A DNA stretch of 64,000 nt from Ensifer adhaerens (GTDB lineage Bacteria > Pseudomonadota > Alphaproteobacteria > Rhizobiales > Rhizobiaceae): NCBI RefSeq assembly GCF_013283195.1, contig NZ_JABEKT010000001.1, positions 1,152,795-1,216,794 of the forward strand, read 5' to 3'. Positions 13,776-49,946 of this stretch are shown piece by piece (the first letter of the stretch is position 1; each line of letters starts with the position of its first letter). A model generated the notes under the pieces. The model saw only the letters and a list, made by a program, of their open reading frames with translations. It had not been told where the DNA came from and searched no databases. The position numbers were made by a program, and so were the translations under genes.

Positions 13776-13796
13776 TTGGCTGGGGAACCTGGATTC
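13776..13796. other. attL core (21-bp repeat of tRNA-Gln 3' end)
   Basis: Identical over 21 bp to 49926–49946 inside and just beyond tRNA-Gln. The match stops at both sides (T versus A before it, TC versus GA after it), which marks the integration crossover segment. Confidence 0.92.
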
Positions 13797-13890
13797 TCAC
13801 ATGATTTCAATAGCTTAGTGGAGAAGCCTTGTAATTCCCTCTTTTTTCCTGCCGCGAGCGACCGTGGATGCCACCTTTGTGCCCTGGCTT

Positions 13891-13899
13891 TGGGCATCA
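13891..13899 (+). other. Putative integrase arm-type site, left end
   Basis: TGGGCATCA is identical to the three phased copies at the right end (49820–49854) and to 21058–21066. Its presence at both island ends suggests arm-type binding by the integrase (inference). Confidence 0.55.
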
Positions 13900-13916
13900 G
13901 TCAACAGGACAGTCGA

Positions 13917-13933
13917 GCGGCAATAATTTCCGC
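13917..13933. repeat. Module-boundary palindrome, copy 1
   Basis: GCGGCAATAATTTCCGC, one mismatch from a perfect palindrome about a central A/T. It ends repeat R1 and lies downstream of the gene at 14212–15597. Confidence 0.75.
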
Positions 13934-14211
13934 GTTCCGGCGCGAAGCTGTCGTCTGGCCATCGCCTTATAAACCTCTGTTAATTCCTGCTCATGATTTG
14001 CGTCCCGCCGCGTTCCAAAGGTAATCGACAAGCGCCTCCAGGCGGGCGGGTTGCCATCCGGAATGGCGCGCACGTTGCTGACCGAATGTGTCTGTCGAAT
14101 GCGCTCGGAAGACGGATGAAGCTTTCTCCGGCAGCGTTGAGGATAGAAGATCTTTCTCACGTAGACCGCCGTTGGCAAAGCGGAGAGGGGGTCAGCCAGT
14201 TAGCCGCGGCG

Positions 14212-15597
14212 CTAGATTTGAGATGTCGGCCAGGTGAACCCGAAGTGAAAATGGCCTACGTAGAAGTGGCGATGCAGGAAATCCAAATCTTGTTCCCACT
14301 CACGGATTGCATCCTCCCGGGACCCGTCTTTTCGCCGCTTGCTGTTCCTGCAGAACGCCGCGATCGACACAGCCATCTTCTGGAGCCGGACAGACGACCC
14401 GTTCGGCCCCCATTCCAACATATACGCACGATCGAACACAGGTGGCAGTGTCGCTTCGAACACACGGCGCAAGATGGCCTGCCTGACCTGAGCGGGCTCG
14501 CCGTGGGTGTGCCCCACTCGGTATTCGAGGTAGGACAGCATGCCCTCGGCCTGCGACTTTTCAAGCCCTAGCCGGCCGTTGCCTCCATTGGCGACCGTTG
14601 TTGGCCACTTGAAGCCTTTGACGTCGGTGCTCGACGATCCGCGGCGTTCCCATTCCTTTGTGACCTTTATTACGGCAGCCTGCGCGCTGGCATGACTGGT
14701 CTTCTGCTTGGGATCGCCGATAATCCGTAGTGCGTTCTTCCAGAGGATCAGAAGATCCGGCATTGACATTGTTTCCAGGTTTCTAGGCACGCGGGACTGC
14801 CCACAAATCCTAGCGACGGGAAGCTCGCTCTTGTTGTTCGCTTTCGGCGCTGTAGGAGAAGCCAGCGGCTTCGGAGGCTTAACTTTCGGTTCCTCCATCA
14901 CGGGAAGTTTGAGCTGTCCGGATTTCACACGGCTCGCCACATCGTAGCCGAGGTGCAGGAGCTTTCCCCGACGCTCGACGAGCTTTTCGTTGACCAGTTT
15001 CGTCAGGGCGGAGGCGAAGGTGCGCTGATAGCTCGGCTCCCCCGTTGGCGTGCCATCTGTTTTCGCATGGGCAGGTGGGTAACCTAGGCCCGAAGCCACA
15101 ACTGCCCCAAGCTCATGGTAGCCCAGAACCTTTCCATTCAATTCTCTGACGATAAGGGACAGTACTGAGGCGATCGGCGGAGGTGCGGGGGTAAACGACC
15201 CCTTCGCGGATGCAGAAACATCGGACTGTTGCGACACGGAAACGTTCGATGAGCTGGCCGGAGAACCGACCGCTGGCGCGGATTCTCCGCCAATGTTGAT
15301 TGCAGGGATTCCAAGAAGGGTGACGCGGCCAGAGGCGGAGATGTCAATGTCCAGATAAGGATGATGCTCGTAATAGCTTACCACGGTGCCGTTTTTCTTC
15401 ATCGCGGCAGCAAAGGTGATCATGTCGTACCAGCGGACAGCCCGCTCGCCATAAGGTAGCTCCTCATCCAACGACAGGCGAACGGCACTGCCGATGGCAG
15501 ATGTAGCTGCCGCGCGGCGCAGTTCACGTATCAGCCTTTCATGAGCGCCACTTTGCGTGCTGCAATCGCCATCTGAATTAATACCAATGCCACCCAT
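14212..15597 (-). CDS. Unknown protein with winged-helix-like middle domain, divergent from McrB-like gene
   Basis: A 461-residue protein with no family I recognise. The N-terminal ~105 residues are mixed alpha/beta. Residues ~105–140 are a Ser/Ala/Pro-rich linker. Residues ~145–225 (YHELGAVVASGLGY...FASALTKLVNEKLVERRG) look like a winged helix, and a basic Pro/Lys linker follows. The last ~115 residues (MLSYLEYRVGHTHGE...FVGHFHFGF-like end) form a compact domain rich in aromatic residues. It is transcribed divergently from the McrB/McrC-like pair across 160 bp, and could be its regulator or a DNA-binding subunit; both are guesses. The start is uncertain. Confidence 0.7.
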   Translation of the reverse strand: MGGIGINSDGDCSTQSGAHERLIRELRRAAATSAIGSAVRLSLDEELPYGERAVRWYDMITFAAAMKKNGTVVSYYEHHPYLDIDISASGRVTLLGIPAINIGGESAPAVGSPASSSNVSVSQQSDVSASAKGSFTPAPPPIASVLSLIVRELNGKVLGYHELGAVVASGLGYPPAHAKTDGTPTGEPSYQRTFASALTKLVNEKLVERRGKLLHLGYDVASRVKSGQLKLPVMEEPKVKPPKPLASPTAPKANNKSELPVARICGQSRVPRNLETMSMPDLLILWKNALRIIGDPKQKTSHASAQAAVIKVTKEWERRGSSSTDVKGFKWPTTVANGGNGRLGLEKSQAEGMLSYLEYRVGHTHGEPAQVRQAILRRVFEATLPPVFDRAYMLEWGPNGSSVRLQKMAVSIAAFCRNSKRRKDGSREDAIREWEQDLDFLHRHFYVGHFHFGFTWPTSQI

Positions 15598-15757
15598 CTA
15601 GCCTCCCGACCGAGCATTAAGAACCAATACAACATACGGGCCTGATCTATTGCTATCTTGGTTGACGACATCTTCACACTTAATTGATTTAATTCCGATG
15701 ACGTCAGATTTACCAAACCGAGCTGCCGCATTTAGAAAAGTTGTTAAGTTCTAGGCC

Positions 15758-18025
15758 ATGGAAACTGCCGCACGAAAGGCCGGCGCTGCTGGCGGTGACA
15801 TCCCAGGTTCACTTGAACTGGCTCTCACCCGAGCGCCTGCCGACCTCCTTCATGAGCTGCGCAGGGCTTGGGGTCTGAACCGATCGGGTCCCATCTGGGT
15901 CGTTGGCCGGGTATGGGTCAAGTCCCTGACGGATGGGCGCGAACTGTGGTTTCTCGACGACATCGAGCATCCGGAAAGTGGCGCAGGTCTTCTATACCCG
16001 ACACTTCCAGGCGTGCAAGGTCGCGACGACCCTGAACCATCTGCCGCATTCATCCCGCCGGGCCCGTCCCGTAAAGTGATAGGTCTGCGTGACGCTGAGG
16101 CAGGCAAACAATGGGCCGTCGCCGAACTTGAGCTTTCATCTCTTACTGAACGCCGAAAGCGCCGAAATCCATGGCTCCTCAACGTACGCTCGGGCACAAT
16201 GCGACTTCTGGCTGACCTTCCGGCCGAATGGCAGGTCGCAGTATCCGGCTCTGAAGCCGTAAGGCGAATCTCGGCCTTGGCGCGGCATGAGATCGAGAGC
16301 CACGTTCGCAAGGTGGTCCTGCAAGAGGACCAGGAACTAGCCCGTCGGCATGCGGACAACGTCGAGACGCTAAGCAGGCTGGATGGGGATCGACGCCAGG
16401 CACAGGATAATGCTCGTGCGGCCAGGGCCAAGATTGAGGCGGACCTCGCCAAGCATCGCCAACGCCGCGACGAAGCTGAACGCAGTGCCGCAGATCTGCA
16501 AGTCCAGCTTGGCATCGAGCAAGAGCGGTTTGCCGCGTACAAAAGCACCGTGGAGCAGGAGAAGCAGCTTATGGAAATCAACTATCGCCGGCTGACGGAT
16601 CTGCTCACCGAGAAGGGCAATCGGCTCGTTGCCCTGGGACTGGCCGATGCCGAAGACGTCGCTGCGCTCATACCCCAGATGACGGGCCCGGAAGATGAGC
16701 GATCTGGCGTAGGTTTCACTGACGCCCTTGCCGGTGATTATGCCCGCCTCGCGCCATTGCTCCAAAGCAGGCTGGCTGAAGCCGGCCTGCTTTATTCTCA
16801 GGCCCAGCTTCGCGACTTTCTGGCGTTGTTGCGCACTCGCGACCTCATTGTGCTGGCGGGAGACTCCGGTTCTGGCAAGACGAGCCTGGTGCGTGCGGCC
16901 GCGGCAGCGATCGGAGGTGTCTGCACGGTAATTCCGGTCAAGCCCAACTGGACTGGTCCCGAGGACCTGCTCGGCTACTATAATCCGATCGAGCGAAGCT
17001 ATCAGGCCACGCCTTTCCTTCTCGCACTCCAGGTCGCATCGCGCAGTCCTCACGTGCCGCATTTCATCTGCCTGGACGAGATGAACCTGGCACGGGTAGA
17101 GCACTACTTCGCCGATTTCCTTAGCTTGCTTGAGAGCCGCTCCACGTCACCCGAGATCCACTTGTACACGGCCGACGAGGAACGTCACGTCGTCGTGGAG
17201 CAAGGAATCTTCCTAGCCGTGGACGCTGAGGCGCGCCGCCGCACGGGACTTCCTGATACTGCAACGCTGGAGGAAATTCTCCGTCACGACCAAGCCAACG
17301 CCGAACTTCATCGTCTCGGAGGCCTGGCGGACAACGAGTCCGTGCTGGTGCATCATACCCGCCTACGACGCTCGCTGGCGGCCCAGCTTCGCATGCCCAC
17401 CTCGCTTACTCTTCCGTCGAACGTGTGGATCCTTGGCGCAGTGAACATGGACGACACGACGCATCAGCTTTCACCCAAGGTGCTCGACCGTGTGCAGGTA
17501 CTGCGTTTTCGGAACCCCATGCTGGCCGATTGGGACGCAATCGAGCGAGAAATCCGGGATGTCGCGTCAACGCCGGCCTCTGTGAAGGCCTCCTTGCGAA
17601 TGATGCCACACGAACTCGGTCAGCGTGCCGACTATCCTGCTTTCGATCGCAGCGACTTAAATGTGGCCTTCCTTTTGCGGATCGCGCGGCAGTATCTGGA
17701 CCCGCTGGGGGTGGAATTCGGACTGCGCGCCGTGCGCCAGTCCCAGGGGTACATCGAGGCCGCCACTGCTGCCGGGATCGGCTCAGATGAGGCGTTGGAC
17801 AATGTGGTCAAGCACAAGATCCTGCCGAAGATCGCGTTTGATTCTGCGCGCCCCGCCGGCAATGGGCGGTCACGACGCGAACTTCTGATGGATTTGAGCG
17901 CCGAATTGGGCAAGCGATTTGAAAATGCAGGACTCGATCCAGACACAAGCAGCGTTGCGGATCTGGAGCGCATGATCAAATTTGCCGAGGGCAACAACGG
18001 CATCGTCAACTACTGGCTGCGCTAA
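15758..18025 (+). CDS. McrB-like AAA+ ATPase with coiled coil
   Basis: A 755-residue protein. An N-terminal domain of unknown fold (~1–170) is followed by a long charged coiled coil (~185–285) and then an AAA+ module. Walker A GDSGSGKTS is at ~367–375, Walker B FICLDEMNL at ~435–443, and the McrB-type sensor/NMDDTTHQLSPKVLDR block at ~560–575. The LDEMNLA and NMDD forms mark the McrB branch, whose members are NTP-driven motors that activate an McrC-type nuclease against foreign or modified DNA. It is followed after 8 nt by the 875-residue nuclease gene, the usual pairing. The N-terminal sensor domain is not that of classical McrB, so the target is unknown. Confidence 0.87.
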   Translation: METAARKAGAAGGDIPGSLELALTRAPADLLHELRRAWGLNRSGPIWVVGRVWVKSLTDGRELWFLDDIEHPESGAGLLYPTLPGVQGRDDPEPSAAFIPPGPSRKVIGLRDAEAGKQWAVAELELSSLTERRKRRNPWLLNVRSGTMRLLADLPAEWQVAVSGSEAVRRISALARHEIESHVRKVVLQEDQELARRHADNVETLSRLDGDRRQAQDNARAARAKIEADLAKHRQRRDEAERSAADLQVQLGIEQERFAAYKSTVEQEKQLMEINYRRLTDLLTEKGNRLVALGLADAEDVAALIPQMTGPEDERSGVGFTDALAGDYARLAPLLQSRLAEAGLLYSQAQLRDFLALLRTRDLIVLAGDSGSGKTSLVRAAAAAIGGVCTVIPVKPNWTGPEDLLGYYNPIERSYQATPFLLALQVASRSPHVPHFICLDEMNLARVEHYFADFLSLLESRSTSPEIHLYTADEERHVVVEQGIFLAVDAEARRRTGLPDTATLEEILRHDQANAELHRLGGLADNESVLVHHTRLRRSLAAQLRMPTSLTLPSNVWILGAVNMDDTTHQLSPKVLDRVQVLRFRNPMLADWDAIEREIRDVASTPASVKASLRMMPHELGQRADYPAFDRSDLNVAFLLRIARQYLDPLGVEFGLRAVRQSQGYIEAATAAGIGSDEALDNVVKHKILPKIAFDSARPAGNGRSRRELLMDLSAELGKRFENAGLDPDTSSVADLERMIKFAEGNNGIVNYWLR

Positions 18026-18033
18026 GCCGTGCC

Positions 18034-20661
18034 ATGGGGGTTTTGGCGCACTATCTCGATATTGAATGGCAGGCTCCAGGCGTAGCGCGCCGAGTGGAGG
18101 TGTCGACTTATCCCATCGAGATCGAGACCGCGCCAGATGGTACGCTTCATGCCGAAGTATCGATTTTCCGGGACTTTGCCCCATGGGTTGGCCTTCAGTT
18201 GTCAGGTGCTCTGGCTGGCGTCGAGCCGTGCACAATCAACGCCGAGAATGAACGCTTGCCGTGGCTGCAGGTGTCCGACGGTGGTGACCGAATGTGGTGG
18301 ATCCCCGAGACAGGCTGGAGCAAGGCCGGCAACAAGCATGTCTCGGAAATGCATCGCTCGTTCGGTTCGTTTTCAGTCGAGCTGGGCTCTCGCCAGAAGC
18401 TCATCCTCGACGCCGTGGCATTGGAGCTCGATCGTGCGCATGCCCAGGAATACCTTGACGATTTCACAGATGAACTCGTTTGGCTTGCGATAGGGCGCCC
18501 GACCGGCGCATTGGGCGAGGTGGGATCGGACAACAGTCGTGATCTGCTGTTTGCCCTCAAAGGGTTCACTGACGCCGCCAGCCGCGTTCTCGAGCATCCG
18601 GCCCGCGAAATCCGCGAAGTGACCGGCGTAGTAGCAACGGCACGGGTCCGTCCCAATTCGGAGACTTTCCGCGCCGTGATGCGTCGGCCGGGAGCTCGAA
18701 GCTACCCGGGCCGAACAGCACAGGAAAGCGCCGACATTCCGGAGAACCGCTATCTCCGTGGCCTTGTCGAGCACTGCCGCCGCCTTGCGCGATCCCTCGC
18801 CCGCTCGTCCAGCCACCATCAAGCCCATCTTGCTGCCAGAGCAGTGCGCGAGAAATCACGAGCAGCCGACCTGCTGGCCGTGGAGAGGGTCGCGGTCGAT
18901 CCCGAGATTTTTGACAACCAGCTTTCTGACATTCGTAAGCGCCTCGATTCCATAGCTACCTGGTCCGGTTCCTCGGTCGCGCCAGAGCCAGGCGAGCGAC
19001 AATACCGGTTCACCGTCGGCAAGGAATTCAAGGGAGACAGAGGGGCTGCCAAGGAATTTTTCTATCGCAATCCCGATCGCGATGACCGTTATGACGAGCG
19101 CGAAGGCATTATTTTCAGTGTGGCGCGGCTCCCCGACGATCTCCATGACTTAGTGATTGCCGCATGCCGTTTCGACAAGGATATCTGTCTAGACCTAACG
19201 GGGAACGCGGTCATCACCACCTTCCGGACAGCTAATGGCAAGGTAGGTCGCCGAGCGACTTTCACGCACATATCAAATGCTTTTCCCCATTCGCCGGTAC
19301 TTGTGCGTCGCGAGACCGCGCGATCCCGATATGAACGAGATGGATGGCATCGGCCGATAGGCCGCACGGAGCGTGAAGAATATCGGCTTGAAGCGAACAC
19401 GGCACTCACACGCGCCGGCCATTTTGCAGAGCGCGTTGAAGGTAGTGCGATCGTCTCGTCTGAACTGAACGTCGTCGCAAATTCACTCGATCAGCAGGAC
19501 GCGGCATGGGAACATCTCAGGGTCGTTTCCAGCTCGAAATTTCCGCTGGGGATGCGCTTTTTTCAGGCGCCGATCTACGCCGCGGCACTGGCTACCTACC
19601 ATAGGGTCTCTGAATTGGAAAAACGCACAGGTCTCAGCGGAGATGTTCTCGACAGGCTGGGGCGCATCAACACGCTGCACGCCAGTGCGCTCTACGAACG
19701 CTGGTGCCTGATCAAAATTATCGGCATCCTGATGCAGGATTTCGGCTTCGAGCCACAGGGGGGCTGGGTGCAGCATCTGGTCACGTCCATATCGCCAGCC
19801 GGACAGCCAAATGACGCCGGTTTTTCACTGAGCTTCACGCGGGTACATCCGAGCATGACCGCCCGCCTCGATGTTGAGCCCACGCTGGCTAATGGTCGTC
19901 GCCCCGACTTCCGCCTGCGCTTCACCGTCGGCGGCGCCCCGGTTTCGAAGAGCGGTGATGATGAACGGGGCTGGGGGCGTCGCCGGCCTATCTTTCGAGA
20001 TGTGACACGGCCGCAGTCCGGCCTGGTCATGGACGCCAAGTTTCGTACCCGGTGGAAGCCAGATGAGCTTCCTTCGATGTTGAGGGTACTGGTCGATACG
20101 AAGAAGTACGGCCAAGACGGCGACCGCGTCTTTATCCTCCAACCTGCGAAGGCCGCTATCGCACACCAGACCTCTCCGCTCGGCTGGAGCCGGGATTGCG
20201 ATTATGGGCAGGAACATCCCACGGGACACGCTCACGGCAGCATTCAACTTGCCGCCGACCCTATATCTGGCGCGGCGTCCTTGACCAATCTGCGACGCCT
20301 GATCGCTCTCCAGCTTCAGCAGGTGTTTCCGGAGCTCGAGGTCGGAGAAGTGCGGGATGGAAACGGCGACGGGAATGCCGGGCGTTGGAGCAATACTACC
20401 GAAAATTGCCGATCGAATTCCACCTTCTGTATCGCCTGCGGAGAGGCGCATGAGCCAGCGGACGTCAAGCCAGATCGGACCGAAAGAGGAAACCGAAAAT
20501 GGTACTACAGTTGCAGCCGGTGCGGCACTGGCACCATGCAGACGCGCTGTTTCGGCTGTGGGACATTTTTGCACAAGAACGGCCTACAGATGACCTACCA
20601 TCTGACCGTCGCCGATCAGATCTCCAACGTGGTCTGTTATGAGTGCGGCGCGGGCTTTTGA
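18034..20661 (+). CDS. McrC-like/DUF2357-type PD-(D/E)XK nuclease with C-terminal zinc ribbons
   Basis: An 875-residue protein. The N-terminal beta-rich region and helical middle resemble DUF2357 proteins that pair with McrB-like ATPases. The nuclease core is around residues 620–690: RPDFRLRF supplies the first Asp, and VMDAKFRTRW supplies the D-x-K pair of a PD-(D/E)XK site. The last ~80 residues hold four CxxC pairs (CIACGE, CSRCGT, CFGCGT, CYECGA), which suggests two zinc ribbons, an addition not found in classical McrC. The gene starts 8 nt after the ATPase gene. It is the likely effector that cuts DNA when the ATPase engages a target. DUF2357 is recalled from memory and not searched. Confidence 0.8.
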   Translation: MGVLAHYLDIEWQAPGVARRVEVSTYPIEIETAPDGTLHAEVSIFRDFAPWVGLQLSGALAGVEPCTINAENERLPWLQVSDGGDRMWWIPETGWSKAGNKHVSEMHRSFGSFSVELGSRQKLILDAVALELDRAHAQEYLDDFTDELVWLAIGRPTGALGEVGSDNSRDLLFALKGFTDAASRVLEHPAREIREVTGVVATARVRPNSETFRAVMRRPGARSYPGRTAQESADIPENRYLRGLVEHCRRLARSLARSSSHHQAHLAARAVREKSRAADLLAVERVAVDPEIFDNQLSDIRKRLDSIATWSGSSVAPEPGERQYRFTVGKEFKGDRGAAKEFFYRNPDRDDRYDEREGIIFSVARLPDDLHDLVIAACRFDKDICLDLTGNAVITTFRTANGKVGRRATFTHISNAFPHSPVLVRRETARSRYERDGWHRPIGRTEREEYRLEANTALTRAGHFAERVEGSAIVSSELNVVANSLDQQDAAWEHLRVVSSSKFPLGMRFFQAPIYAAALATYHRVSELEKRTGLSGDVLDRLGRINTLHASALYERWCLIKIIGILMQDFGFEPQGGWVQHLVTSISPAGQPNDAGFSLSFTRVHPSMTARLDVEPTLANGRRPDFRLRFTVGGAPVSKSGDDERGWGRRRPIFRDVTRPQSGLVMDAKFRTRWKPDELPSMLRVLVDTKKYGQDGDRVFILQPAKAAIAHQTSPLGWSRDCDYGQEHPTGHAHGSIQLAADPISGAASLTNLRRLIALQLQQVFPELEVGEVRDGNGDGNAGRWSNTTENCRSNSTFCIACGEAHEPADVKPDRTERGNRKWYYSCSRCGTGTMQTRCFGCGTFLHKNGLQMTYHLTVADQISNVVCYECGAGF

Positions 20662-20939
20662 CTACTGGTGGGAAATAATTGATGTGAGCCAGTACTTCAG
20701 GTTTGATCGGATTTTCGCTGAATGGTGCTATCGGCCCCAAACGACGGTCGTTGGTCACGGCTTGTTTGGGGGCGGTCGAACAAGGTCCCCAGCCGCTTTT
20801 TCTACAAAGCTCCAAGCGTCGGTGGGATCTGAAGAATATCACATATTTGACGCGAAATCGCGCCAACTGACTGTAGAAACGTCACTTTTTGGGTGAAAAG
20901 TGACGGCCAGCAAACGGCGGAAATGGGACCAAAAAGTGC

Positions 20940-20960
20940 TTGCTTGGGGGGCTTGGATTC
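20940..20960. other. Degenerate internal att-like core
   Basis: Matches the 21-bp att core at 16 of 21 positions in the same place relative to the left-end repeat. It is probably the attachment core of a related element that used a slightly different tRNA 3' end, or a decayed site. Confidence 0.55.
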
Positions 20961-21101
20961 CTCCCCCATTATTTCAACGACTTAGCTGAAAATCGTTGAA
21001 ATTCCCTCTGTTTTCCCATCGCGAGCGACCGTGGATGCCACCTTTGTGCCCTGGCATTGGGCATCAGTCAACAGGAGAGAGCCAGCGGCAATTATTTCCG
21101 C
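20955..21101 (+). repeat. Internal copy of the island left end, R2
   Basis: A ~147-bp segment aligned to 13791–13933; 57 bp (21020–21076) differ by a single base. It carries TGGGCATCA at 21058–21066 and ends in the same palindrome. Confidence 0.85.
21085..21101. repeat. Module-boundary palindrome, copy 2
   Basis: GCGGCAATTATTTCCGC, at the end of repeat R2 and between the McrBC-like and PLD modules. Confidence 0.75.
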
Positions 21102-21170
21102 TGACCGACCTTGCGGCAAGGCGGCCATAACGCGCCCGGCAAGATTGATGAAGCCGTCGGTAGGGAGCAG

Positions 21171-21272
21171 TTACTTCAATGCCTCAAAGATGAAGAGCAG
21201 CCGGGTCTGGGCAAAATCCGACTTCTTGACCAGAAGCCGCTGCTTTTCGGCCTCGCGTCGATAGACCTGCAT
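21171..21272 (-). pseudogene. Short decayed frame, possible RepB/ParB-like C-terminal fragment
   Basis: A 33-codon minus-strand frame (MQVYRREAEKQRLLVKKSDF...) ending at 21171. Its EAEKQRLLVKKSDFAQTRLLFI pattern weakly recalls C-terminal parts of plasmid-partition-type proteins of rhizobial islands. It has no upstream gene body, so if real it is a remnant. Low confidence. Confidence 0.25.
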
Positions 21273-21451
21273 AATTGACTAGTTTCGTCCCCTAAATCTA
21301 ATCCTCCACGGTGAAGCGTCATCGTGGGCGGATCCGCCCCGATCGAGTTGCGTTACGGGTAAAAAAGAGACAATCATAGCGAGATTACAGTATCCGCTAG
21401 ATCGTGTTGCAGTAATGGGCAGACTTTCGAGGTGGCTTAGAGGGGAAAGCC

Positions 21452-33563: not shown

Positions 33564-33566
33564 TCC

Positions 33567-37448: not shown

Positions 37449-37451
37449 CGC

Positions 37452-40974: not shown

Positions 40975-41023
40975 TAGGGGTGCGGGGCTTGGAGCCCGGA
41001 AGCAAGCTTCCATCAAAGCCAAG

Positions 41024-41305: not shown

Positions 41306-42403
41306 ATGACTACGTTTACATCGACGCTCCCCACGGGGGAAGTTCTCCGTTCGACCATCAACGTCGACTTCGCCACCGCGTCGACCTTCGGATCGCGCCA
41401 GCGCCCTCTGGGCCTCGGCCGCGTTTCGGCTCTTACCGCAGGGTCCATCAGCGAACCGGCAAGTCTGCGCCGCCACCCGCACATCGTCCGCTTCGCCAAC
41501 GTCGAGGCTGATCTCGACCTGCTGATCGATCGCGCCATTGCGGCGATTGCCGACGGCGAGCCGATCGAGGACGAGATCCTCGGACACTATGTTCACATCG
41601 CCTCGCTTGTGCGCGCCGTTTCGTTCCGCGAAGGCAAGCTGCTTGAACAGGCGGTCGAGTGCCTGGCGAAAGCCAACCCCAACGTGACGGTGCTGTCGCA
41701 GTCGTTGAAACTGCCGTTGGTCAAGGCGGCGCTTGAAGCCGTCGCCGGCAACGACTGGTCCTGCCTCGATGGCATCAAGCTCGATTGCGAGGCGCCGGCC
41801 AAGGGCAGCTACACGCCGGACCTCATCATCGTGAACCGTGCGCGGCATATCGCCTACATCCTCGACCTCAAGCGTTCGCTCGCCTCGTACGGTGACACCA
41901 GTCGTCTTGAAGAGTTGAAGATGAAGATGATGGCCTCGGCAATGGTGCTGCCGGACTGGCTCTACAAGAACCACAAGCGCATGATGGTCGACACCGTCGA
42001 GGTCGCCATCGTCGATGGCGCCAGCCGCCCGAGCGATCATGCCACCGGCATCTGGGCGTTGTCCGAGATCGACGACCTGCTGGAGATTGATGGTGTCGCC
42101 GCGTGCATGGCTGAACTGCGCCTGCGCTTTGGTCGTCGTGTGCAGCAGCTTCTCGAGACGGTCGCGCGCAAGGCGCTCGGTGTCGTGGAGATCGCCGTGT
42201 CGGATGCGGCGTCGGCCTTGTCTGCCAAGGCGCGGATCGCGCTGAATGGTCCGACGCTGAGCTATGAAGACGAGCAGGCGATGGCGGCGCAGGATGAGGA
42301 CGACGGCTTCGATGAGCTCGGTTGCTTCGATGAGGACCAGGACGACGAACCGGAACCGGTCCGTATCAAGGTTGGCTTTGCCCGTCGTCCCCGCGGGCAC
42401 TGA
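41306..42403 (+). CDS. Candidate PD-(D/E)XK-fold protein, unknown family
   Basis: A 365-residue protein. Residues ~168–195 read YTPDLIIVNRARHIAYILDLKRS, with an Asp and a D-x-K spaced as in PD-(D/E)XK nucleases; downstream helices and strands are compatible. The C-terminus is an acidic Asp/Glu tail (AAQDEDDGFDELGCFDEDQDDEPEP). The ATG at 41306 has GAAAGGAATC in front. It lies upstream of the split AAA/M41 genes. The nuclease assignment rests on the motif alone. Confidence 0.6.
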   Translation: MTTFTSTLPTGEVLRSTINVDFATASTFGSRQRPLGLGRVSALTAGSISEPASLRRHPHIVRFANVEADLDLLIDRAIAAIADGEPIEDEILGHYVHIASLVRAVSFREGKLLEQAVECLAKANPNVTVLSQSLKLPLVKAALEAVAGNDWSCLDGIKLDCEAPAKGSYTPDLIIVNRARHIAYILDLKRSLASYGDTSRLEELKMKMMASAMVLPDWLYKNHKRMMVDTVEVAIVDGASRPSDHATGIWALSEIDDLLEIDGVAACMAELRLRFGRRVQQLLETVARKALGVVEIAVSDAASALSAKARIALNGPTLSYEDEQAMAAQDEDDGFDELGCFDEDQDDEPEPVRIKVGFARRPRGH

Positions 42404-42518
42404 TCTGTCAGTCATCCGACGGCACTGATCTCGGCCGTGCCATCAGGCGCGCGGCCGGCTTCCCATCCTTCCATTCCGAGAACGCCGGATGCCAATGTGC
42501 TCCGGCGAGGAGATCCTC

Positions 42519-43049
42519 ATGTCCATCGATACAGACCGCCCGTCTGTGGCCGCCTTCCGATGTGAAACGGTCACGCCCGATACCGTCGCGCCGCCTTGCC
42601 GTCATAGCAGGCTGGCGACTATCCCTCACTTTCAAGCGACTGGCGTCGGTCACACCGATAACCGCCGCGACCATCCCGCCATCCTGATCGGCCTCGCGCT
42701 CGCCTGCGTTCGCCAAGGACCACCGGTGCCCGTGCCCTTGATTGCCAAGTTGGGTGCACTTGCCGATCATGACGACGCCGCCTGCCGCCTCGTGCTCGAC
42801 TGGCTTCGAACCCGCAATCGGAATCTCGGTCTGCTCCCGGACGAGCATCGGACCGGGTCTGCTCCGGCTGTCATGACCGCGAAGACACAGGCAGTCTTTC
42901 GCTCTATCGGCGAACGCGTGCAGGCAGGCTCTTCGAAACCGGGTCACCTTGATGGACGTCGGCGCATGCGGACACGGCCGCGCGATCCGGTGACGATCGT
43001 TGAGACGGCAATTATTGCCGCGGAGACAGGAGGGCGCGCCGATGGATAA
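42519..43049 (+). CDS. Hypothetical protein coupled to the AAA+ gene
   Basis: A 176-residue protein without a recognised domain, with a helical middle and a basic Arg-rich C-terminal third. The ATG at 42519 has GAGGAGATCCTC in front. The last 8 nt overlap the start of the AAA+ gene, so translation is probably coupled. A 15-bp palindrome (CGGCAATTATTGCCG, 43006–43020), related in core to the island palindromes, lies inside its 3' end. Confidence 0.6.
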   Translation: MSIDTDRPSVAAFRCETVTPDTVAPPCRHSRLATIPHFQATGVGHTDNRRDHPAILIGLALACVRQGPPVPVPLIAKLGALADHDDAACRLVLDWLRTRNRNLGLLPDEHRTGSAPAVMTAKTQAVFRSIGERVQAGSSKPGHLDGRRRMRTRPRDPVTIVETAIIAAETGGRADG

Positions 43050-45045
43050 ACTCACTCGTCTGTTCGTCCATCGCCTGCGGCATCTTGCGCGCCGCGAGGC
43101 GCGCAGCATCGCTCTGCGAAACGGTCTGCTCGAGGCTAAGGTCATTGATGTCGATGGCCATCTGCTTTGCCGTTACAGCCCCGCCTTCGACACGGCAGGT
43201 CTATCAGGCGATCCGGTTCGCGATGGTCCCTGGTTCCAGCGGAATTTTGGCAAAGGGATCGTTGCGTCAGAAGCCAAGGGCAATCTCAATCCAGAAGCAA
43301 ACGGCGAGGTCGGCGTGACGGTGGAGACCATCGACAAGACGCTTCGCTCGCCGCTGGTTGCCTTCCCACGGAAGCGTCGCAGCGCAAATGCAGAGGAGGT
43401 GACACTGGCCAACGGCATCGATCGGCGTGCCTACGCGGTTGGGCTTGTCGATCAGGCGGCCGCAGTGCCGCTGGTCAGTCATGTCGTGGTGACCCTGGTG
43501 TTGGCGCGTGCGGTGCGCAGTAGCAGCAGGTCACTACGGGAGATCGTTCACATTCTGACGCGCGTGACGTCGGTCGTCACGCTGAATGCGCCACTCGACG
43601 GCTTCGAGCGGGAAGTGCTGCGGCTGCTGGAAAAGTCTCCAATGGTGCCGGGCGGTCCGTTCGCCATCATCGATGCCGATCATATGTTCAACGACGATCA
43701 CTTCGATGTTCACGACGGGGAGGTTCGCAAACGTCTTGTGGTGTTCTCAGGCGCCGGGGTGCATCGTGTCACCGGCAACGCCCTGCGTCGGAGAATGATC
43801 AGCGCGCTCTCGCGCGAGTTCCCGATCCTTGCCGTTGCGGAAAAACGATCGGACATTCCCTCCCTGCTGCGGATCTCCGCCGACCTGTCGCTGGAGACGG
43901 GAAAGCTTGATCGGAGGTTCGTCGCCGACTTGGTCGAGGTGTTTTATCCGGACGTGGCAATCGAGACGTTGGGCTGGCCGGCGGATGCCGATGCGCGCTG
44001 GTTGTCGCTGGAGGATCTGGTTCTTGCCTTCCGTCCGGGTCGGCACATCAGGGACGTGCTGCACGTCCTTGCGATCCTCATCGAGCGGAATCGCGGCGAC
44101 TCTGAAGACGAGGACAGCGACGACGAGGAAGGCAGTGCAAGTGGCGACAACGTCTCTTCCTCCGGAACAAGGGGATCACGGACAGCTCCTTCCAATACCG
44201 AGAAGACGTCAGGTTCAGACGAAAAGCCGAAGCCCACTGACACTGAAAGCAACGGCCGCTGGAAGAAGGACAAGCCGTCTGGCGCCGAAGTGATCCAGCC
44301 GGAGCCTCCACTGAGGGCGGACGAGACTGGCCACAAGCCGCCGCTGACTGTCGAGGCTATCTCCGGATATGGCAGGGCGAAGGACTGGGCGCTCGATCTC
44401 AAAGTCGACCTCGATGACTACCGCGCGAGCATCCTATCGTGGTCGGAGATGAGCACCAAGCTGCTGCTATCAGGCCCACCCGGCACCGGCAAGACGACCT
44501 TTGCCCGGGCGCTGTGCAACAGCCTACAGGTTCCGCTGGTCGTCACCTCCGTTTCCACCTGGCTGCAAGGTGGACATCTGAACGACGTGATCGAGAAGAT
44601 GGCCAAGACCTTCATCGAGGCGCGGGCCATGGCACCGGCGATCCTGTTCATCGACGAGATCGACGGTATCGGCAAGCGGCAGCCCGCTGAGCGAGAATAC
44701 TCAGACTATTGGAATGCCGTCGTCAACAAGGCGCTGGAGCTGCTCGACGGTGCGGTCAAGAGCGAAGGATTGATCATCGTCGGCGCCACCAACCGGCCCG
44801 ACGATATCGACGAGGCGATCAAGCGCTCCGGACGGCTGGAGACTCATATCGAAATCCCAAAGCCCGACGTCCCGACGCTTGCGGAAATCCTTGCCCATCA
44901 TCTCGGTGACGATGTGAAGGCACTGATTGAGGAGCCGGAAGCCGACGCCGGCTCAGATACCGATGATGGCTTCTCACTGAAGAAGATTGTCGCCGACCAT
45001 CTGAGGGATGAAGCCGAGATTGAACGGAAGGGAACAGGCCGATGA
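43042..45045 (+). CDS. AAA+ ATPase subunit of a split FtsH-like protease
   Basis: A 667-residue protein. The N-terminal ~340 residues are unrelated to FtsH and carry no transmembrane helix. An acidic, low-complexity stretch (EDEDSDDEEGSASGD) lies at ~352–370. A classical AAA module follows with Walker A SGPPGTGKTT (~476–485), Walker B ILFIDEIDG (~533–541) and the second-region pattern GATNRPDDIDEAIKRSGRLE. The helical lid seems to continue in the next gene, which overlaps by ATGA and encodes an M41 peptidase. Together they look like an FtsH-type unfoldase and protease on two chains, soluble instead of membrane-bound. GGAGG precedes the ATG at 43042. Confidence 0.83.
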   Translation: MDKLTRLFVHRLRHLARREARSIALRNGLLEAKVIDVDGHLLCRYSPAFDTAGLSGDPVRDGPWFQRNFGKGIVASEAKGNLNPEANGEVGVTVETIDKTLRSPLVAFPRKRRSANAEEVTLANGIDRRAYAVGLVDQAAAVPLVSHVVVTLVLARAVRSSSRSLREIVHILTRVTSVVTLNAPLDGFEREVLRLLEKSPMVPGGPFAIIDADHMFNDDHFDVHDGEVRKRLVVFSGAGVHRVTGNALRRRMISALSREFPILAVAEKRSDIPSLLRISADLSLETGKLDRRFVADLVEVFYPDVAIETLGWPADADARWLSLEDLVLAFRPGRHIRDVLHVLAILIERNRGDSEDEDSDDEEGSASGDNVSSSGTRGSRTAPSNTEKTSGSDEKPKPTDTESNGRWKKDKPSGAEVIQPEPPLRADETGHKPPLTVEAISGYGRAKDWALDLKVDLDDYRASILSWSEMSTKLLLSGPPGTGKTTFARALCNSLQVPLVVTSVSTWLQGGHLNDVIEKMAKTFIEARAMAPAILFIDEIDGIGKRQPAEREYSDYWNAVVNKALELLDGAVKSEGLIIVGATNRPDDIDEAIKRSGRLETHIEIPKPDVPTLAEILAHHLGDDVKALIEEPEADAGSDTDDGFSLKKIVADHLRDEAEIERKGTGR

Positions 45046-45800
45046 CCACGACACAGCATGCCAACACGACGGACACGGATGTTGCTGGGCACGCGATCTT
45101 GCGGCGTCTCGCCACGCGGGCCATGGGCCTGACGGGTGCCGATATCGAGCGCGTCGTCCGGGAGGCGCGATTGAAGGCGCGACGCGGCAAGCGGGCGATC
45201 ACCTACGTAGACATCGAAGAGGGTATCCGCGGTAATCGTCCACAGGTGCCCTACAATTTGCGTTGGCGCTGGGCGTTCCATGAAGCGGGGCACGCCGTTG
45301 TCCATCACGTGCTCGATCTTGGTCCCGTTCGCGGCCTCAATATCGACACCGGCAAGGGTGGTTATAATCTGGTGGGCTTCCATCTCTGGGCGGCCGATAC
45401 CCGCGATTGGTACGAAAACATGCTGACCATGCTGATGGCCGGGCGGGCTGCTGAGCAACTCACTCTCAAGCGCATCTCCGCTGGATCCGGTGGTACCGAA
45501 GACAGCGATCTCGCACGGGCCACGCGGCTTGCCTTCGACATGGAACGCATCCTCGGCTTCGGGGCCGAGCATCCGCTGCTCTATCGTCCCCATCGCGATC
45601 CGGGCGCGGTTCTCGATGGCGATCCTGAACTGGCGGCGCGCGTTCATGCCAGGTTGGAAGCGGCGCTCGACCGGGCAGGGACGATCCTTAGGCGACGCCG
45701 GCCGACCTTCAATGCCCTCGCCAAGGCGTTGTTCGAAGCGCAGGCCATGGATGAAAGTGCGGTGCTACAAATTTTGACAGACGGTGATCCGCCGCCGTAA
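45042..45800 (+). CDS. M41 (FtsH-like) zinc peptidase subunit
   Basis: A 252-residue protein. Residues ~15–62 (TRAMGLTGADIERVVREARLKARR...TYVDIEEGI) match the C-terminal lid of FtsH-type AAA modules. The peptidase domain starts with the zinc motif HEAGH at 80–84, and the GGTEDSDLARATRLAF region supplies the usual third acidic ligand area. The ATP-binding domain is missing here and is encoded by the gene that overlaps upstream (ATGA). The fusion point of FtsH has thus been cut between core AAA and lid. The substrate is unknown; on a defence-type island a regulated protease effector is an attractive guess. Confidence 0.85.
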   Translation: MTTTQHANTTDTDVAGHAILRRLATRAMGLTGADIERVVREARLKARRGKRAITYVDIEEGIRGNRPQVPYNLRWRWAFHEAGHAVVHHVLDLGPVRGLNIDTGKGGYNLVGFHLWAADTRDWYENMLTMLMAGRAAEQLTLKRISAGSGGTEDSDLARATRLAFDMERILGFGAEHPLLYRPHRDPGAVLDGDPELAARVHARLEAALDRAGTILRRRRPTFNALAKALFEAQAMDESAVLQILTDGDPPP

Positions 45801-45844
45801 AGCTGGTAGTCGTCATGCGGTAGTGAGGAAAGTCGGAGGGCGGG

Positions 45845-46783
45845 ATGGGCGTAACGGTCGTTGCCCATTGCGATTGGAGCATGGATCCGAAAAAACGCTG
45901 GATGGCTGTGGCCATCAAGCGCGGCGGACATTGGCATGTTCTGTCGCCGGAACTCGTCGGTGACACATCGAGCTTGTTCGATCGGCTGCAGCGCCGCGCG
46001 GTAGAGCCAGGCTCGCTCGTCATCGGCTTCGACTTCCCCATCGGCCTGCCGGAGTTCTATGCGCGAGCAGCGGGTCTTGGCACTTTCCGAGAGGCTCTGA
46101 CATTGTTCGGCTCCGGGATTTGGTCGGATTGGTACAATGTCGCCGATCATCGCGACCGTATCTCACTGCATCGGCCGTTCTATCCCATCCGCCCTGGCGG
46201 CACAGCGCGTGCCCATCTGTTCGACGCTCTTGGGATTTCTGACGCGTCGTCGATCCTGCGCATCTGCGAGCGGGCGACCGCCGATCGGCAGGCCGCCTGC
46301 ATGCTGTTTTGGACGCTTGGCGGCAATCAGGTCGGCAAAGGCGCGATCTCGGGATGGCGGGAAATCATCGTTCCGAGACTGGACGAGATTGGACTGTGGC
46401 CTTTCGACGGCAGCGTGTCCGAACTCGCCAACAGCAAGCCAGTCGTCCTCACCGAGACATATCCTGGCGACGTGTACCGTCAGATCGGTATGCCTCGAAC
46501 TGGCTGGAGCAAGCGGCGTCAGGCGGACCGAATCCGAATGGGACACAGTATAAGACCTTGGCTTGCAGCACGGCCGGACCTCGATACCGATCTGCTGCAA
46601 CCGTCAATCGACGATGGCTTTGGTTCGGACAAGGCAGGTGAGGATCGTTTCGATGCCGCCATCGGGCTTTTCGGCATGCTTGACGTCGTTGACGGCCGGC
46701 GGGATGAAGGCGTTCCGCCGATTGACGCTATCAGAAGGTTGGAAGGCTGGATATTCGGCCATCATCGTGATGATGTGATGTGA
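45845..46783 (+). CDS. DUF429-like predicted RNase H-fold nuclease
   Basis: A 312-residue protein. An N-terminal strand carries an acidic residue (AHCDWSMDPKKRWMAVAI), VIGFDFPIGLP lies at ~58–68, and a C-terminal EDRFDAAIGLFGMLDVV lies at ~265–280. This is the three-part acidic layout of DUF429-type RNase-H-fold proteins, where FDxPIGLP is a hallmark. The fold suggests nucleic-acid cleavage, but activity has not been shown for most members. It starts 44 nt after the M41 gene with GGAGGGCGGG in front and is probably in the same operon. Confidence 0.7.
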   Translation: MGVTVVAHCDWSMDPKKRWMAVAIKRGGHWHVLSPELVGDTSSLFDRLQRRAVEPGSLVIGFDFPIGLPEFYARAAGLGTFREALTLFGSGIWSDWYNVADHRDRISLHRPFYPIRPGGTARAHLFDALGISDASSILRICERATADRQAACMLFWTLGGNQVGKGAISGWREIIVPRLDEIGLWPFDGSVSELANSKPVVLTETYPGDVYRQIGMPRTGWSKRRQADRIRMGHSIRPWLAARPDLDTDLLQPSIDDGFGSDKAGEDRFDAAIGLFGMLDVVDGRRDEGVPPIDAIRRLEGWIFGHHRDDVM

Positions 46784-46843
46784 CTTGGAATGAATTGCGG
46801 AACGTTTTCGGCAACGCACGTCAAGTCTCCGGCAACCTGAAAC

Positions 46844-47031
46844 AAATTGCGCTCATTTGATTCTGGGTTCGACAGTTTTGATTCGGAATTCGAATATTCT
46901 GATTCACCAACGCCGTTCGCGGCTGATCGAGTCATCCTGACATGAGATGACGTGCCCGCAACTCAAGAAAAATTGCGGTCATTTGATTCAATGTTCTGAG
47001 CCATCGATTCAAAAATCGATATTTCCGATTC
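46844..47031. repeat. Two phased arrays of GATTC iterons
   Basis: GATTC occurs at 46859, 46880 and 46901 and again at 46985, 47006 and 47027, every 21 bp within each block, with the blocks 126 bp (6 x 21) apart. The 20 bp leading each block are identical except for one base. All sites face one side of the helix. This is the 322-bp gap before the small gene at 47106; it looks like an operator or replication/partition-type iteron region. Confidence 0.8.
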
Positions 47032-47105
47032 GGCGGAATAGGGCTTGCGCCGACACGCCGGTCCCCTGACCATTGATAACAGGTCAAGGATTGGGAGAAG
47101 GCAGC

Positions 47106-47420
47106 ATGAACCTTAAGACAGCACGGCGGCGGCAGAAGGCACTTCGCGACGCCAACAGAATGGCCAGGCGGCCGGATAGGGACGATGTGGCCCGGGTGGC
47201 ACTGTTCTGGCTGATCCGGCGGGCGATCGACAAGGGCCAGCAGGCCGAGCTTGAGAAGTTCCGGACCAAGATCGTTTCGATGTTGGTCGATCAGGGGTTC
47301 GATGAGCGCGAAAGCGACGCGGTGTTTGACGATCTGATCGCCAGATACCGAACGGGCGGCTCGCCCTTCCGCCGAAAAATTCATCTGCTCTATCCCGACG
47401 GAGCCGACCAGGAAGTCTGA
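47106..47420 (+). CDS. Small basic protein downstream of the iterons
   Basis: A 104-residue, Arg/Lys-rich protein: a basic N-terminal helix (KTARRRQKALRDANRMARRP), a helical middle and the tail SPFRRKIHLLYPDGADQEV. No family is recognised. The ATG at 47106 has GGGAGAAGGCAGC in front. Its position right after the GATTC arrays makes it a candidate DNA-binding protein that reads them, but no HTH is certain. Confidence 0.6.
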   Translation: MNLKTARRRQKALRDANRMARRPDRDDVARVALFWLIRRAIDKGQQAELEKFRTKIVSMLVDQGFDERESDAVFDDLIARYRTGGSPFRRKIHLLYPDGADQEV

Positions 47421-47648
47421 GCGACACGCCCAACCTGGTCTGCCGTTGTCGAATTGGCTTGCTTGGCGGGTACAATGCACGCCTGACGGCGTTTGGCGAA
47501 ATGGCGACTTCTCCCCCCATTACTTCGTAAAACGCCGTTTGATTCTGAATCGGAATTCCAGAGAAGCAGATGGGATTTGTTCTTCAGTTCGTTTAGCTCC
47601 GTCGGCCACACGATCCCGAAGGTGTTGGAAGGCAGCCTCGTTTCACAG

Positions 47649-47683
47649 TAGACCGGGGCGGAAATCATTTCCGCCCCGGTCTA
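47649..47683. terminator. 35-bp perfect inverted repeat after the integrase gene (contains palindrome copy 5)
   Basis: A 17-bp perfect arm on each side of a central C. The inner 17 bp (47658–47674) are GCGGAAATCATTTCCGC, the fifth copy of the island palindrome. It lies 1 bp beyond the integrase stop, between convergent genes, and probably acts as a terminator for the integrase transcript. Confidence 0.75.
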
Positions 47684-47684
47684 C

Positions 47685-49772
47685 TCACTTCTTGCGCTCG
47701 CGCGCCCACGGAGGTGGTTGATTGTTTTCGATCCACGGGAGGAGTTGCAACGGTTTCGGCTCGATGGCGGAGGTAATGATCGGATAGTGCTTCAAGGCGC
47801 TCCGCATCAACGGAAGGCCTGCTGGATTGGTGTAGCGCGTGTTTGTTTCGCTGCCCTCGCTCAACCGTCCCGAGATGTCATCAATGACGTCTGGCGAGAC
47901 GCCTGCCTGCTTCAGTGTGTCCGCCATCCCATGCCGGAAAGCATGAAGCGCTCGTTTCCACATGTTTTCGCCAAGTGCTTCCTGCATCGCGGGCGTAAAG
48001 ACGTCGTAGAAACGATCCCCCGGATCGTTGTCGGTCTTGTCCGAGAACAGATCTGGAAACAGTGCATCATAACCAAGCTTCTTGATCGCGTGATAGTAGT
48101 CGATGAAGCCCAAACGAACGAGTTCGTCGGGAAGGGGCAGCCATCTTTCCGACTGCACATTTTTCAGCCGACGAAGATCGTTGGTGCGAATGATGATTAC
48201 GTATCCGTGCTCATCCCGCGCAATGTCCCTGACAGAGAGACCTGCAAACTCTTTTCGTCGAGCTCCGAGATAGGTGAACAACATGGGCAGGTAGTAGAGG
48301 GCGTCGTGGAAAACTTCACTGCCCGGCTCGTATCTCTTCCCCCGCAGATGGCCTTGCGCACCCGTATAGATCGGGCTGGCAAAAATCGGGGTAACGTCCT
48401 GCGGCTTCGGCTTGTATTGCTTGCCTCGGATTTCACCGGCTTTCGGCTTCCGGGGCCGGAGACCCTCGAATGTCCATTGCTCGATTTCGAACCCGTGGCC
48501 TTTCAGGTGCTTCAGGAAGTGTTGCAGGTTCCCGAAGTGTTTGCGAATTGTAGTCGAGGCCAGCCCCACCTTCGCCTTGGTGCCGGTAGCATCCGCTGCC
48601 TGGTACAGTTTCTCGCCCTCCGCGCGCAGCTCCGGCGCCGACATGCTTCTCATCCGGGCGCTTTTGCCCCAGTTGGTCGGAATGTCGTTGAAATGCTGTC
48701 GCAGCAGGCCGATGTGGTATTGCTCGATCTGCCCGGAATGCTCGACTCCATGTTCATGGAGCACCGATTTGAACATCCGTACCAGCGCCATTGCATCTCG
48801 CGCTGTTGCCGGCTCCCAATCTTCGCCCATGTTCTTGATGAGCTTTTCACACTCCTCCTCAAACTCCGATACGGCAACGACCCGTTGTTCAGCTTCCCGA
48901 GGTTTGGGTGACGCCTTCGCGGCGTTTGCGAGGCCCGGCGATAAGTCGAGGTGGGCGAATGCCGCCACCTCCGGAACATCCGGCGCGGGCGTTGCCGGTG
49001 TGCTCTCTACGGCCAGCTTCAGGGAAGCGGGGGGTGCTGGTTCGACCCTTGCAGGCTTGGCCTCGGTCAAGGATTTGTTGCCTGCGTCACCACCTGTGAA
49101 TTCACTGAGGCGTCTATCGACGAGCTCGTGACGTTCATCGATGTCGAAAAATGCTTGTGCGCGGGCTTCGCAAAACTTCGTCATGGCCCGCTCCCGATTT
49201 ATCGGGGTGTCAGGAATGTCGAAAGAGACCATTACGCTTCGGACCGCTTCCTGTACGGCGTGGCTTCGTACCGTATTCAATCCGTCGATATGATTTGCCC
49301 GGATTGCATCCACGTGGGAGATCGGCACGCCGCTTCTCAGCAGGTAACTCAGCCCGCTGCAGTCTCCTGCCAGGGTGAGGTCCTTGGCTGCGCCGAACTT
49401 GGCCAGAAGGCTGTAGGCCCAGCCTGCCTCCAGATCGAGTTCCATCTCGTGGACGTCACCCGCCCGACCTTTCCGCTTGGCCAGCAGACTGATGTCGTCA
49501 AGGTCCCTGAGCATGGCGTCGCGCGTATGCTCAAAAAACTTCTGAAGCTGTTCCCTGTCAGCCATGATTTCCTTCGGTTTCAATTTCATCTCGGCAAGCC
49601 GCATGTTGAGTTGCCGCGCGATCATCTGTGCTTTCTTATGATCGGAAACCTGAAGACTGAGTGAAAGCCGGCTCCCTGGGGTGCATTGGATGAAGGAGAT
49701 TGGAACACGCGCGCGCCAGTAGAAGATGTTTCCGCGGCGAATGAGGTTCTCGACGTCGTGGCGGACCGCCAT
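47685..49772 (-). CDS. Tyrosine recombinase (island integrase, DUF6538-type N-terminus)
   Basis: A 695-residue integrase. The N-terminus MAVRHDVENLIRRGNIFYWRARVP is the DUF6538-like arm-binding region of tRNA-targeting island integrases, and a SAM-like core-binding domain lies in the middle. The catalytic domain shows Arg in YLGARRKEFAGL, the H-x-x-R of HAFRHGMADTL and the nucleophile Tyr in NTRYTNP (~647). It lies 155 bp from tRNA-Gln, whose 3' end is the attachment site. The start at 49772 gives the family N-terminus; the longer frame from 49829 would overlap the arm sites. The arm sites upstream may also allow autoregulation. Confidence 0.9.
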   Translation of the reverse strand: MAVRHDVENLIRRGNIFYWRARVPISFIQCTPGSRLSLSLQVSDHKKAQMIARQLNMRLAEMKLKPKEIMADREQLQKFFEHTRDAMLRDLDDISLLAKRKGRAGDVHEMELDLEAGWAYSLLAKFGAAKDLTLAGDCSGLSYLLRSGVPISHVDAIRANHIDGLNTVRSHAVQEAVRSVMVSFDIPDTPINRERAMTKFCEARAQAFFDIDERHELVDRRLSEFTGGDAGNKSLTEAKPARVEPAPPASLKLAVESTPATPAPDVPEVAAFAHLDLSPGLANAAKASPKPREAEQRVVAVSEFEEECEKLIKNMGEDWEPATARDAMALVRMFKSVLHEHGVEHSGQIEQYHIGLLRQHFNDIPTNWGKSARMRSMSAPELRAEGEKLYQAADATGTKAKVGLASTTIRKHFGNLQHFLKHLKGHGFEIEQWTFEGLRPRKPKAGEIRGKQYKPKPQDVTPIFASPIYTGAQGHLRGKRYEPGSEVFHDALYYLPMLFTYLGARRKEFAGLSVRDIARDEHGYVIIIRTNDLRRLKNVQSERWLPLPDELVRLGFIDYYHAIKKLGYDALFPDLFSDKTDNDPGDRFYDVFTPAMQEALGENMWKRALHAFRHGMADTLKQAGVSPDVIDDISGRLSEGSETNTRYTNPAGLPLMRSALKHYPIITSAIEPKPLQLLPWIENNQPPPWARERKK

Positions 49773-49819
49773 GAAAACTGCCCTTGCTCGCCACCGATGA
49801 TGGCACGCAACTTTTCGCG

Positions 49820-49854
49820 TGGGCATCACCTGTGGGCATCAGTTATGGGCATCA
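49820..49854 (+). repeat. Three phased integrase arm-type sites, right end
   Basis: TGGGCATCA at 49820, 49833 and 49846, exactly 13 bp apart. The same 9-mer is in the left-end repeats (13891 and 21058). They lie between the integrase start and the att core. Confidence 0.7.
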
Positions 49855-49925
49855 GGTCGCCAATGATGCCAAAACGATATCCGGCACGACTGGAAAATCA
49901 AGGAATTAAGGGCTTTTTGGGAGAA

Positions 49926-49946
49926 TTGGCTGGGGAACCTGGATTC
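49926..49946. other. attR core (tRNA-Gln 3' end)
   Basis: Identical to 13776–13796. It covers the CCA end, acceptor 3' strand and the 3' half of the T-arm of tRNA-Gln. Confidence 0.92.

Follow-up and report, generated by a model that had tools for sequence, protein, structure and literature searches.

An island in Ensifer adhaerens bears on how whole systems enter and leave defence islands, through what lies between its defence-type modules. The DNA analysed (hereafter the window) is a stretch of 64,000 nucleotides (contig NZ_JABEKT010000001.1, positions 1,152,795 to 1,216,794), in which the island occupies positions 13776-49946 at a tRNA-Gln gene, with a tyrosine recombinase gene (integrase) at the tRNA end. 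The most unusual feature of the island, absent from a preliminary description of this DNA made from the letters alone, is a 17-bp palindrome, GCGGAAATNATTTCCGC, which is confined to the island and lies in its left attachment (att) unit and at four module borders. All five copies with at most one mismatch in the 7.07-Mb genome are within the island, while the reversed-pattern control gives none. A short integrase-linked border would be a direct handle on the gain and loss of systems, and the comparisons below suggest that islands of this kind are put together from cassettes that can be exchanged. The five copies are arranged as follows.

13917-13933: palindrome 1, GCGGCAATAATTTCCGC, one mismatch, in the left att (attL) unit.
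21085-21101: palindrome 2, one mismatch, in an internal att unit, separating the PDC-M26 pair from the PLD pair.
25406-25422: palindrome 3, perfect, separating the PLD pair from the helicase/methylase/HNH operon.
38449-38465: palindrome 4, perfect, at the junction of cargo and companion block, between the helicase/methylase/HNH operon and the HNH-to-AAA/M41 block.
47647-47685: palindrome 5, inside a perfect inverted repeat with two 19-bp arms and with its 17-bp heart at 47658-47674, beginning 10 bp past the integrase stop codon, between the HNH-to-AAA/M41 block and the integrase.

The inner palindromes lie 4 to 423 bp from the flanking genes, and 4 of the 17 gaps or overlaps among the 18 genes considered hold a copy. 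A chance or low-complexity repeat, to which the shortness of the motif might point, has a negligible probability given seven matches in the window at up to three mismatches (two of them 3-mismatch matches within genes) against 0.48 expected, together with the empty reversed control.

The palindrome recurs in relatives, where it accompanies the integrase. With at most one mismatch it was found in 102 of 297 genomes of the family and the control pattern in 9 (hand count), and at least three palindromes were present in 13 of the 15 genomes whose integrase homologue is close (E < 1e-220, a cut-off set after the results were seen) versus 19 of the 282 others (p ~2e-12, from hand-transcribed lists). 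At 33 of 38 integrase loci a palindrome with at most two mismatches is located between -9 and +13 bp from the integrase stop codon, where the control gives none; these loci were hand-chosen from 80, the other 42 being dropped because the integrase match was partial or fell short of its 3′ end. Only a degenerate form of the palindrome is present at the integrase stop of locus L174. The integrase-side palindrome has symmetrical outer arms whose sequence varies between loci, and the arms occur as hybrids, the left arm being common to L163 and L237 and the right arm different. Among copies with at most one mismatch in the sequence tiles that were fetched, 74 of 83 are intergenic versus 17.6% of random positions. 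The segments between palindromes in other islands encode, among other products, Lamassu LmuA/LmuB, DpdF/GajB-like helicases, BrxC and a type I restriction enzyme, and a further segment combines a type III restriction enzyme with an HKD-SNF2 protein. PADLOC matches (E ≤ 1e-10) were obtained for 14 of 19 hand-picked proteins, mostly products of long genes, which came from between-palindrome segments of other islands or from beside the palindrome in a second integrase lineage (see below). As a search pattern, such a border sequence would allow islands to be cut into segments and would point to undescribed systems between two borders.

These distributions also bear on two other roles. The palindrome could serve as an operator, or as a centromere-like site, for a DNA-binding protein encoded in the element, either the 410-aa ParB/Noc-like or the 407-aa product of the companion block. 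The model of the 410-aa protein weakly resembles the DNA-binding domains of Spo0J/ParB/Noc (best E 1.2, predicted template modelling score 0.38), the presence of at least three palindromes shows an association with the gene for the 407-aa protein (20 of 52 genomes, p ~1e-9; p 4e-4 without the close-integrase genomes), and a palindrome lies just upstream of that gene in genomes G061, G191, and G260. This role is nevertheless unlikely, as 4 of the 15 close-integrase genomes (G029, G032, G084, and G354) contain palindromes and gave no match to the 407-aa protein (no search was made for the 410-aa gene), and, of the 72 intergenic copies, 30 have convergent genes on either side. Because of these four genomes, the palindrome appears to be tied to the integrase more than to the companion block. 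Placement between convergent genes (the same 30 of 72 copies versus 146 of 637 gaps overall) and the symmetrical arms of differing sequence at the integrase-side copy would instead suit bidirectional transcription terminators or insulators between modules. However, no terminator-like match overlaps the five window copies, no run of T follows them, and the sequence itself, rather than the stem alone, is conserved and is absent elsewhere in the genome, all of which makes a terminator role very improbable.

The setting of the five copies is a tRNA-integrated genomic island with a tyrosine recombinase, delimited by the following features.

13776-13796, plus strand: left 21-bp core (attL), a copy of the tRNA-Gln 3′ end, with an empty site in relatives.
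13797-13933, plus strand: remainder of the attL unit, ~120 bp of it conserved, with an arm-type GGGCATCA repeat at 13892 and palindrome 1.
20754-21101, plus strand: internal att unit, consisting of a ~190-bp stretch, a degenerate core at 20940-20960 (16/21), a 118-bp repeat (85%) and palindrome 2.
47685-49829, minus strand: tyrosine recombinase, 714 aa, with a DUF6538 N-terminus.
49819-49854, plus strand: three arm-type GGGCATCA repeats adjoining attR, at 49821, 49834 and 49847.
49926-49946, plus strand: right 21-bp core (attR).
49927-50000, minus strand: tRNA-Gln(CTG).

The copy of the tRNA-Gln 3′ end is perfect over 21 bp at both ends (shuffled sequences gave none), and the exact ends, the adjacent tyrosine recombinase and the matching arm-like sites beside both cores given in the preliminary description were thus borne out. 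The empty site that it expected in relatives was found as well: when the window flanks were joined at one core (325 bases) and compared with 16 genomes of the same genus, an uninterrupted site matching contiguously over 1-325 was present in three (G003, 92%; G015, 91%; G014, 87%), and the joined flanks were split in three others (the genome of the window itself, G011, and G005). G007 and G013 gave additional partial matches (the tRNA end duplicated over 50 bp ~40 kb away, and pieces of the left flank on another contig) and may hold islands as well, and eight genomes match the tRNA side alone, which is uninformative for the empty site. No conjugation or phage structural family reached the Pfam cut-off among the window proteins, and the TraC-like match of a 115-aa protein is at chance level (E 0.43), in agreement with the earlier observation that transfer and phage genes are not visible.

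The earlier treatment of the island as a single unit did not hold, since a third, degenerate att copy divides it. Positions 20962-21079 are an 85% copy of 13795-13912 and follow the degenerate core at 20940. Because the left end thus recurs inside the island, 13776-20960 forms a piece with att sites at both ends and no integrase found among its genes, and 20940-49946 forms a second piece, and the island is therefore a composite of at least two tandem att-bounded pieces. Att units of the same type recur in other islands, several of them with the conserved ~190 bp upstream. An inverted partial copy of the core was noticed by eye ~155 bp upstream of the degenerate core in internal att units (window 20784-20960). 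A 90-kb island in G277 (contig C4, 228798-318570; L053-L057) contains ten palindromes with at most one mismatch and repeated att units, and would serve well as a model island. An inversion of a cargo piece between palindromes, suspected from the comparison of G060 with G062 and G277, was not upheld.

With slightly less than even confidence, the island is read here as a composite series of defence cassettes that the island's own tyrosine recombinase assembled at tRNA-Gln, in which the palindrome appears, from sequence comparison, to be an integrase-linked border and exchange site for the cassettes, at which recombination would take place. Elements of the form core, integrase, palindrome, cargo, palindrome, 137 bp, core would integrate in tandem at the tRNA gene. 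Exchange between palindromes, carried out most simply by the cognate integrase, would then remove the integrase/att piece between neighbours or swap the cargo, and would leave cassettes joined via a single palindrome, as at 25406 and 38449. Two loci have layouts that fit such a course, namely L237 (core, integrase, palindrome, one gene, palindrome, core-like site, cargo, palindrome, core) and L179 (core, integrase with an altered 3′ end, palindrome, core-like site). The first segment of L237 is not clean independent cargo, because the close integrase pair L164/L237 has 330 bp in common beyond the palindrome.

The ends of homology blocks between islands also often coincide with palindromes. In 16 tiles, 41 of 858 distinct block ends fall within 5 bp of a palindrome versus 2.1 expected at random (maximum 7 in 500 randomizations), and in the larger tile set a block end lies within 5 bp of 22 of the 83 palindromes versus a control mean of 6.0 and a maximum of 17 (1000 intergenic sets). 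The limit was two mismatches in the 16-tile count and one in the intergenic and control-site counts, and blast rows were dropped below 400 bp for the block-end counts and below 250 bp for the comparison of cargo. For one block shared by G011 and G062, the distance from its end to a palindrome is 11 bp in G062 and 233 bp in G011.

An ordinary tRNA island grown by tandem accretion would account for part of this pattern. Cis-mobilizable elements (CIMEs) are accreted elements in which tandem att sites surround a piece without an integrase, and an internal att unit bounding such a piece is what was found for 13776-20960. On this account the palindrome would be an accessory integrase-binding site, and its solitary copies would be ghosts of old element ends left by deletion. 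The degenerate att unit at 20940, an integrase remnant beside the outer att unit in G062, the membership of the palindrome in the aligned attL units, and the confinement of all block-end junctions to integrase, companion-block or att copies agree with it. Palindromes 25406 and 38449 have no adjoining att core, yet they lie between modules, so that the island adds to a CIME-like arrangement a second class of border site, and the retention of just 17 bp through deletion is not obviously explained. Accretion alone is a possibility to be taken seriously, though a doubtful one.

A second integrase lineage offers a comparison for the cassette reading. The L193 integrase (37% identity) has a different palindrome, GTGTAACGTATATATACGTTACAC, 5 bp past its stop codon; with at most three mismatches this sequence occurs at four sites of the same genome, where the control gives none, and at no site in the second genome tested. 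Two of the sites (contigs L243 and L244) have 1459 bp in common at 87.5%, starting exactly at the palindrome, and their left sides differ. The L193 lineage is counted as an independent repeat of position, recurrence and junction. Its sites cannot be placed in one island because the contigs are short and draft.

Several points weigh against exchange at the palindrome. All 22 junction palindromes are at the integrase end, the companion block (38449 and its counterparts) or an att unit and none is at a bare cargo-to-cargo border, as cargo is rarely shared, and a conserved site beside variable DNA would likewise yield block ends there. When 548 pairs of integrase loci were compared, the homology block ended at the integrase-side palindrome in 169, continued beyond it in 317 and terminated short of it in 62, and the cargo block shared by G011 and the window (window 25546-38400) stops 49 bp from the palindrome in the window and 189 bp from it in G011. 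The loci are not independent of one another, L185 and L229 having 13.6 kb in common at 97.8%, and the second lineage comes from a single genome, on draft contigs that are short. In the window, the palindrome is missing from two wide gaps (160 and 609 bp) that separate divergent genes. The 1-nt centre of the palindrome is unusual for a tyrosine-recombinase core, and a search that included plasmids and phages found no two strains differing in the presence of a single cassette.

If exchange at palindromes is general, these islands would form a third natural cassette system beside integrons and pdif modules, in which every lineage of tRNA-Gln integrases in the Rhizobiaceae would have a particular palindrome where its gene ends, with further copies serving to connect, remove and swap entire defence operons; this extension is possible, though it is on balance doubted. 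Descriptions of this palindrome or of these islands were looked for in the open-licence literature of PubMed Central (titles and abstract openings) and none was found, and DUF6538 gave no paper. Integrons, pdif modules and PAISt are best regarded as analogous to the island but with different sites. Sites of pdif type are 28 bp long and of the XerC/XerD type, with two 11-bp arms and a 6-bp spacer, and the island palindrome is 17 bp long with one central base. The pdif (dif) modules of Acinetobacter plasmids are gene modules between copies of a short recombination-type site and are apparently mobile (PMC6449649). The island modules are likewise flanked by copies of one short site, whereas pdif modules have XerC/XerD dif-like sites and occur mainly on plasmids, and the island combines its palindrome with its own integrase, a chromosomal tRNA site and defence cargo. 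With integrons the island shares a tyrosine recombinase with a site beside its gene and palindromic sites at cassette borders. It differs from them in segments of 4-13 kb in the window with several genes each, which occur in either orientation in G277, and in an integrase gene beside a tRNA att site with the palindrome at its 3′ end. By eye, and with no attC search tool applied, no attC-like layout is apparent at the borders. The integrase was not assigned to the IntI type: DUF6538 is above its Pfam cut-off, Phage_integrase is below it (24.6 versus 27.1 bits), and no NCBIfam family was matched at E ≤ 0.01, in a library understood to include an IntI model. In the modular excision of PAISt, an 8-bp palindrome is itself the integration site (PMC4057263), whereas the island has its core in the tRNA-Gln end and its palindrome as a separate site.

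The genes between the borders are the following.

14212-15597, minus strand: 461-aa gene with no family assigned; next to an attL unit in G166, a genome of another genus, lies a stretch with 92% identity to it over 452 aa.
15758-20661, plus strand: PADLOC candidate PDC-M26 A/B, an AAA_5 McrB-like ATPase and a partner with a DUF2357 match slightly below the cut-off.
21452-25287, plus strand: PLD-like (ZacB-like) protein and a 510-aa partner without an assigned family.
25601-38413, plus strand: DEAD/MZB helicase (DruE-like), SNF2 helicase (DpdE/DrmD-like), Eco57I-type methylase (DrmMI-like) and HNH nuclease.
38470-47480: recurrent companion block, with an HNH gene on the minus strand and 410-aa, 407-aa, 186-aa, AAA, M41, DUF429-like and 115-aa genes on the plus strand.

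That the cargo is mostly of defence type, as previously proposed, agrees with PADLOC matches to PDC-M26 A and B (E < 1e-240), to DruE-, DpdE- and DrmMI-like proteins and to HNH nucleases. In Pfam, the AAA_5 domain of the McrBC-like pair passes and DUF2357 scores 22.2 versus a cut-off of 23.3 bits; no McrB or McrC model was matched in NCBIfam (whether it includes one was not checked). For the pair previously labelled PLD/DUF6361, the PLD-like part stands and the DUF6361 name has to be dropped, as the gene at 23755-25287 matched no Pfam family at E ≤ 1, DUF6361 included, in a library understood to include that model. The DISARM gene set consists of DrmA, DrmB and DrmC plus DrmD/DrmM, and the DISARM-like label given to the third operon is not supported by the NCBIfam scores (DrmD, 289 versus 610 bits; DrmC, 19 versus 133; DrmA, 15.5 versus 999), with no DrmB among the matches listed (for the AAA protein, the best 25 of 32). 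Within the DrmMI-like methylase gene the G+C content falls to 41-47% at window 36000-36750, where the DNA homology to G011 is broken, and this stretch is perhaps an exchanged recognition domain.

The HNH-to-AAA/M41 genes, earlier listed as cargo, are present as described, including the split of AAA and M41 peptidase domains between adjacent genes (FtsH-type). They are not arbitrary cargo: the block recurs beside the integrase in several relatives, conserved in G060, G062, G011, G166, and G277 and diverged in others, and is therefore better described as a recurrent companion block. Protein conservation favours plus-strand genes for its middle part. The HNH frame (window 38470-39406) appears to be broken, because the G060 relative is matched in two overlapping frames. 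In the 407-aa protein a PD-(D/E)XK-like motif was recognized by eye, with weak fold support (best E 0.004), and PDB sequence searches with this protein and with the 410-aa protein gave nothing useful. No plasmid record near the companion block was found. A second 407-aa/AAA/M41 operon, whose 407-aa protein is 84% identical, is present without a palindrome on another contig of the genome of the window (contig C14, ~17787-23792; L103-L104).

In the integrase, the R, HxxR and Y motifs (assigned by eye) are invariant across ten relatives, and tRNA-Gln(CTG) lies upstream of the gene in 33 of 38 loci, a set slightly different from that used for the stop codon. At class level the search detected the integrase in 2 genomes out of 289, one being that of the window; the integrase matched none of 50,697 phage records at E ≤ 1e-20 and seven plasmid records, two of which cover at least 80%, both at 25-27% identity. 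A 778-aa protein with a tyrosine-recombinase-like C-terminal motif (by eye) is encoded beside the integrase-side palindrome in several relatives and gave no Pfam match at E ≤ 1 and no PDB sequence match. It was rejected as the recombinase of the palindrome, which occurs, with at most two mismatches, at 4 of 30 loci carrying the gene (1.5-kb flanks); the palindrome is ~2.8 kb distant from the copy in G018. The 778-aa gene is absent from the window and present at the equivalent of window 47573-47658 in the five genomes in which the companion block is conserved. In G239 (L124, contig C1, position 496468), a perfect palindrome is located within the integrase gene, ~890 bases from the start of the integrase match.

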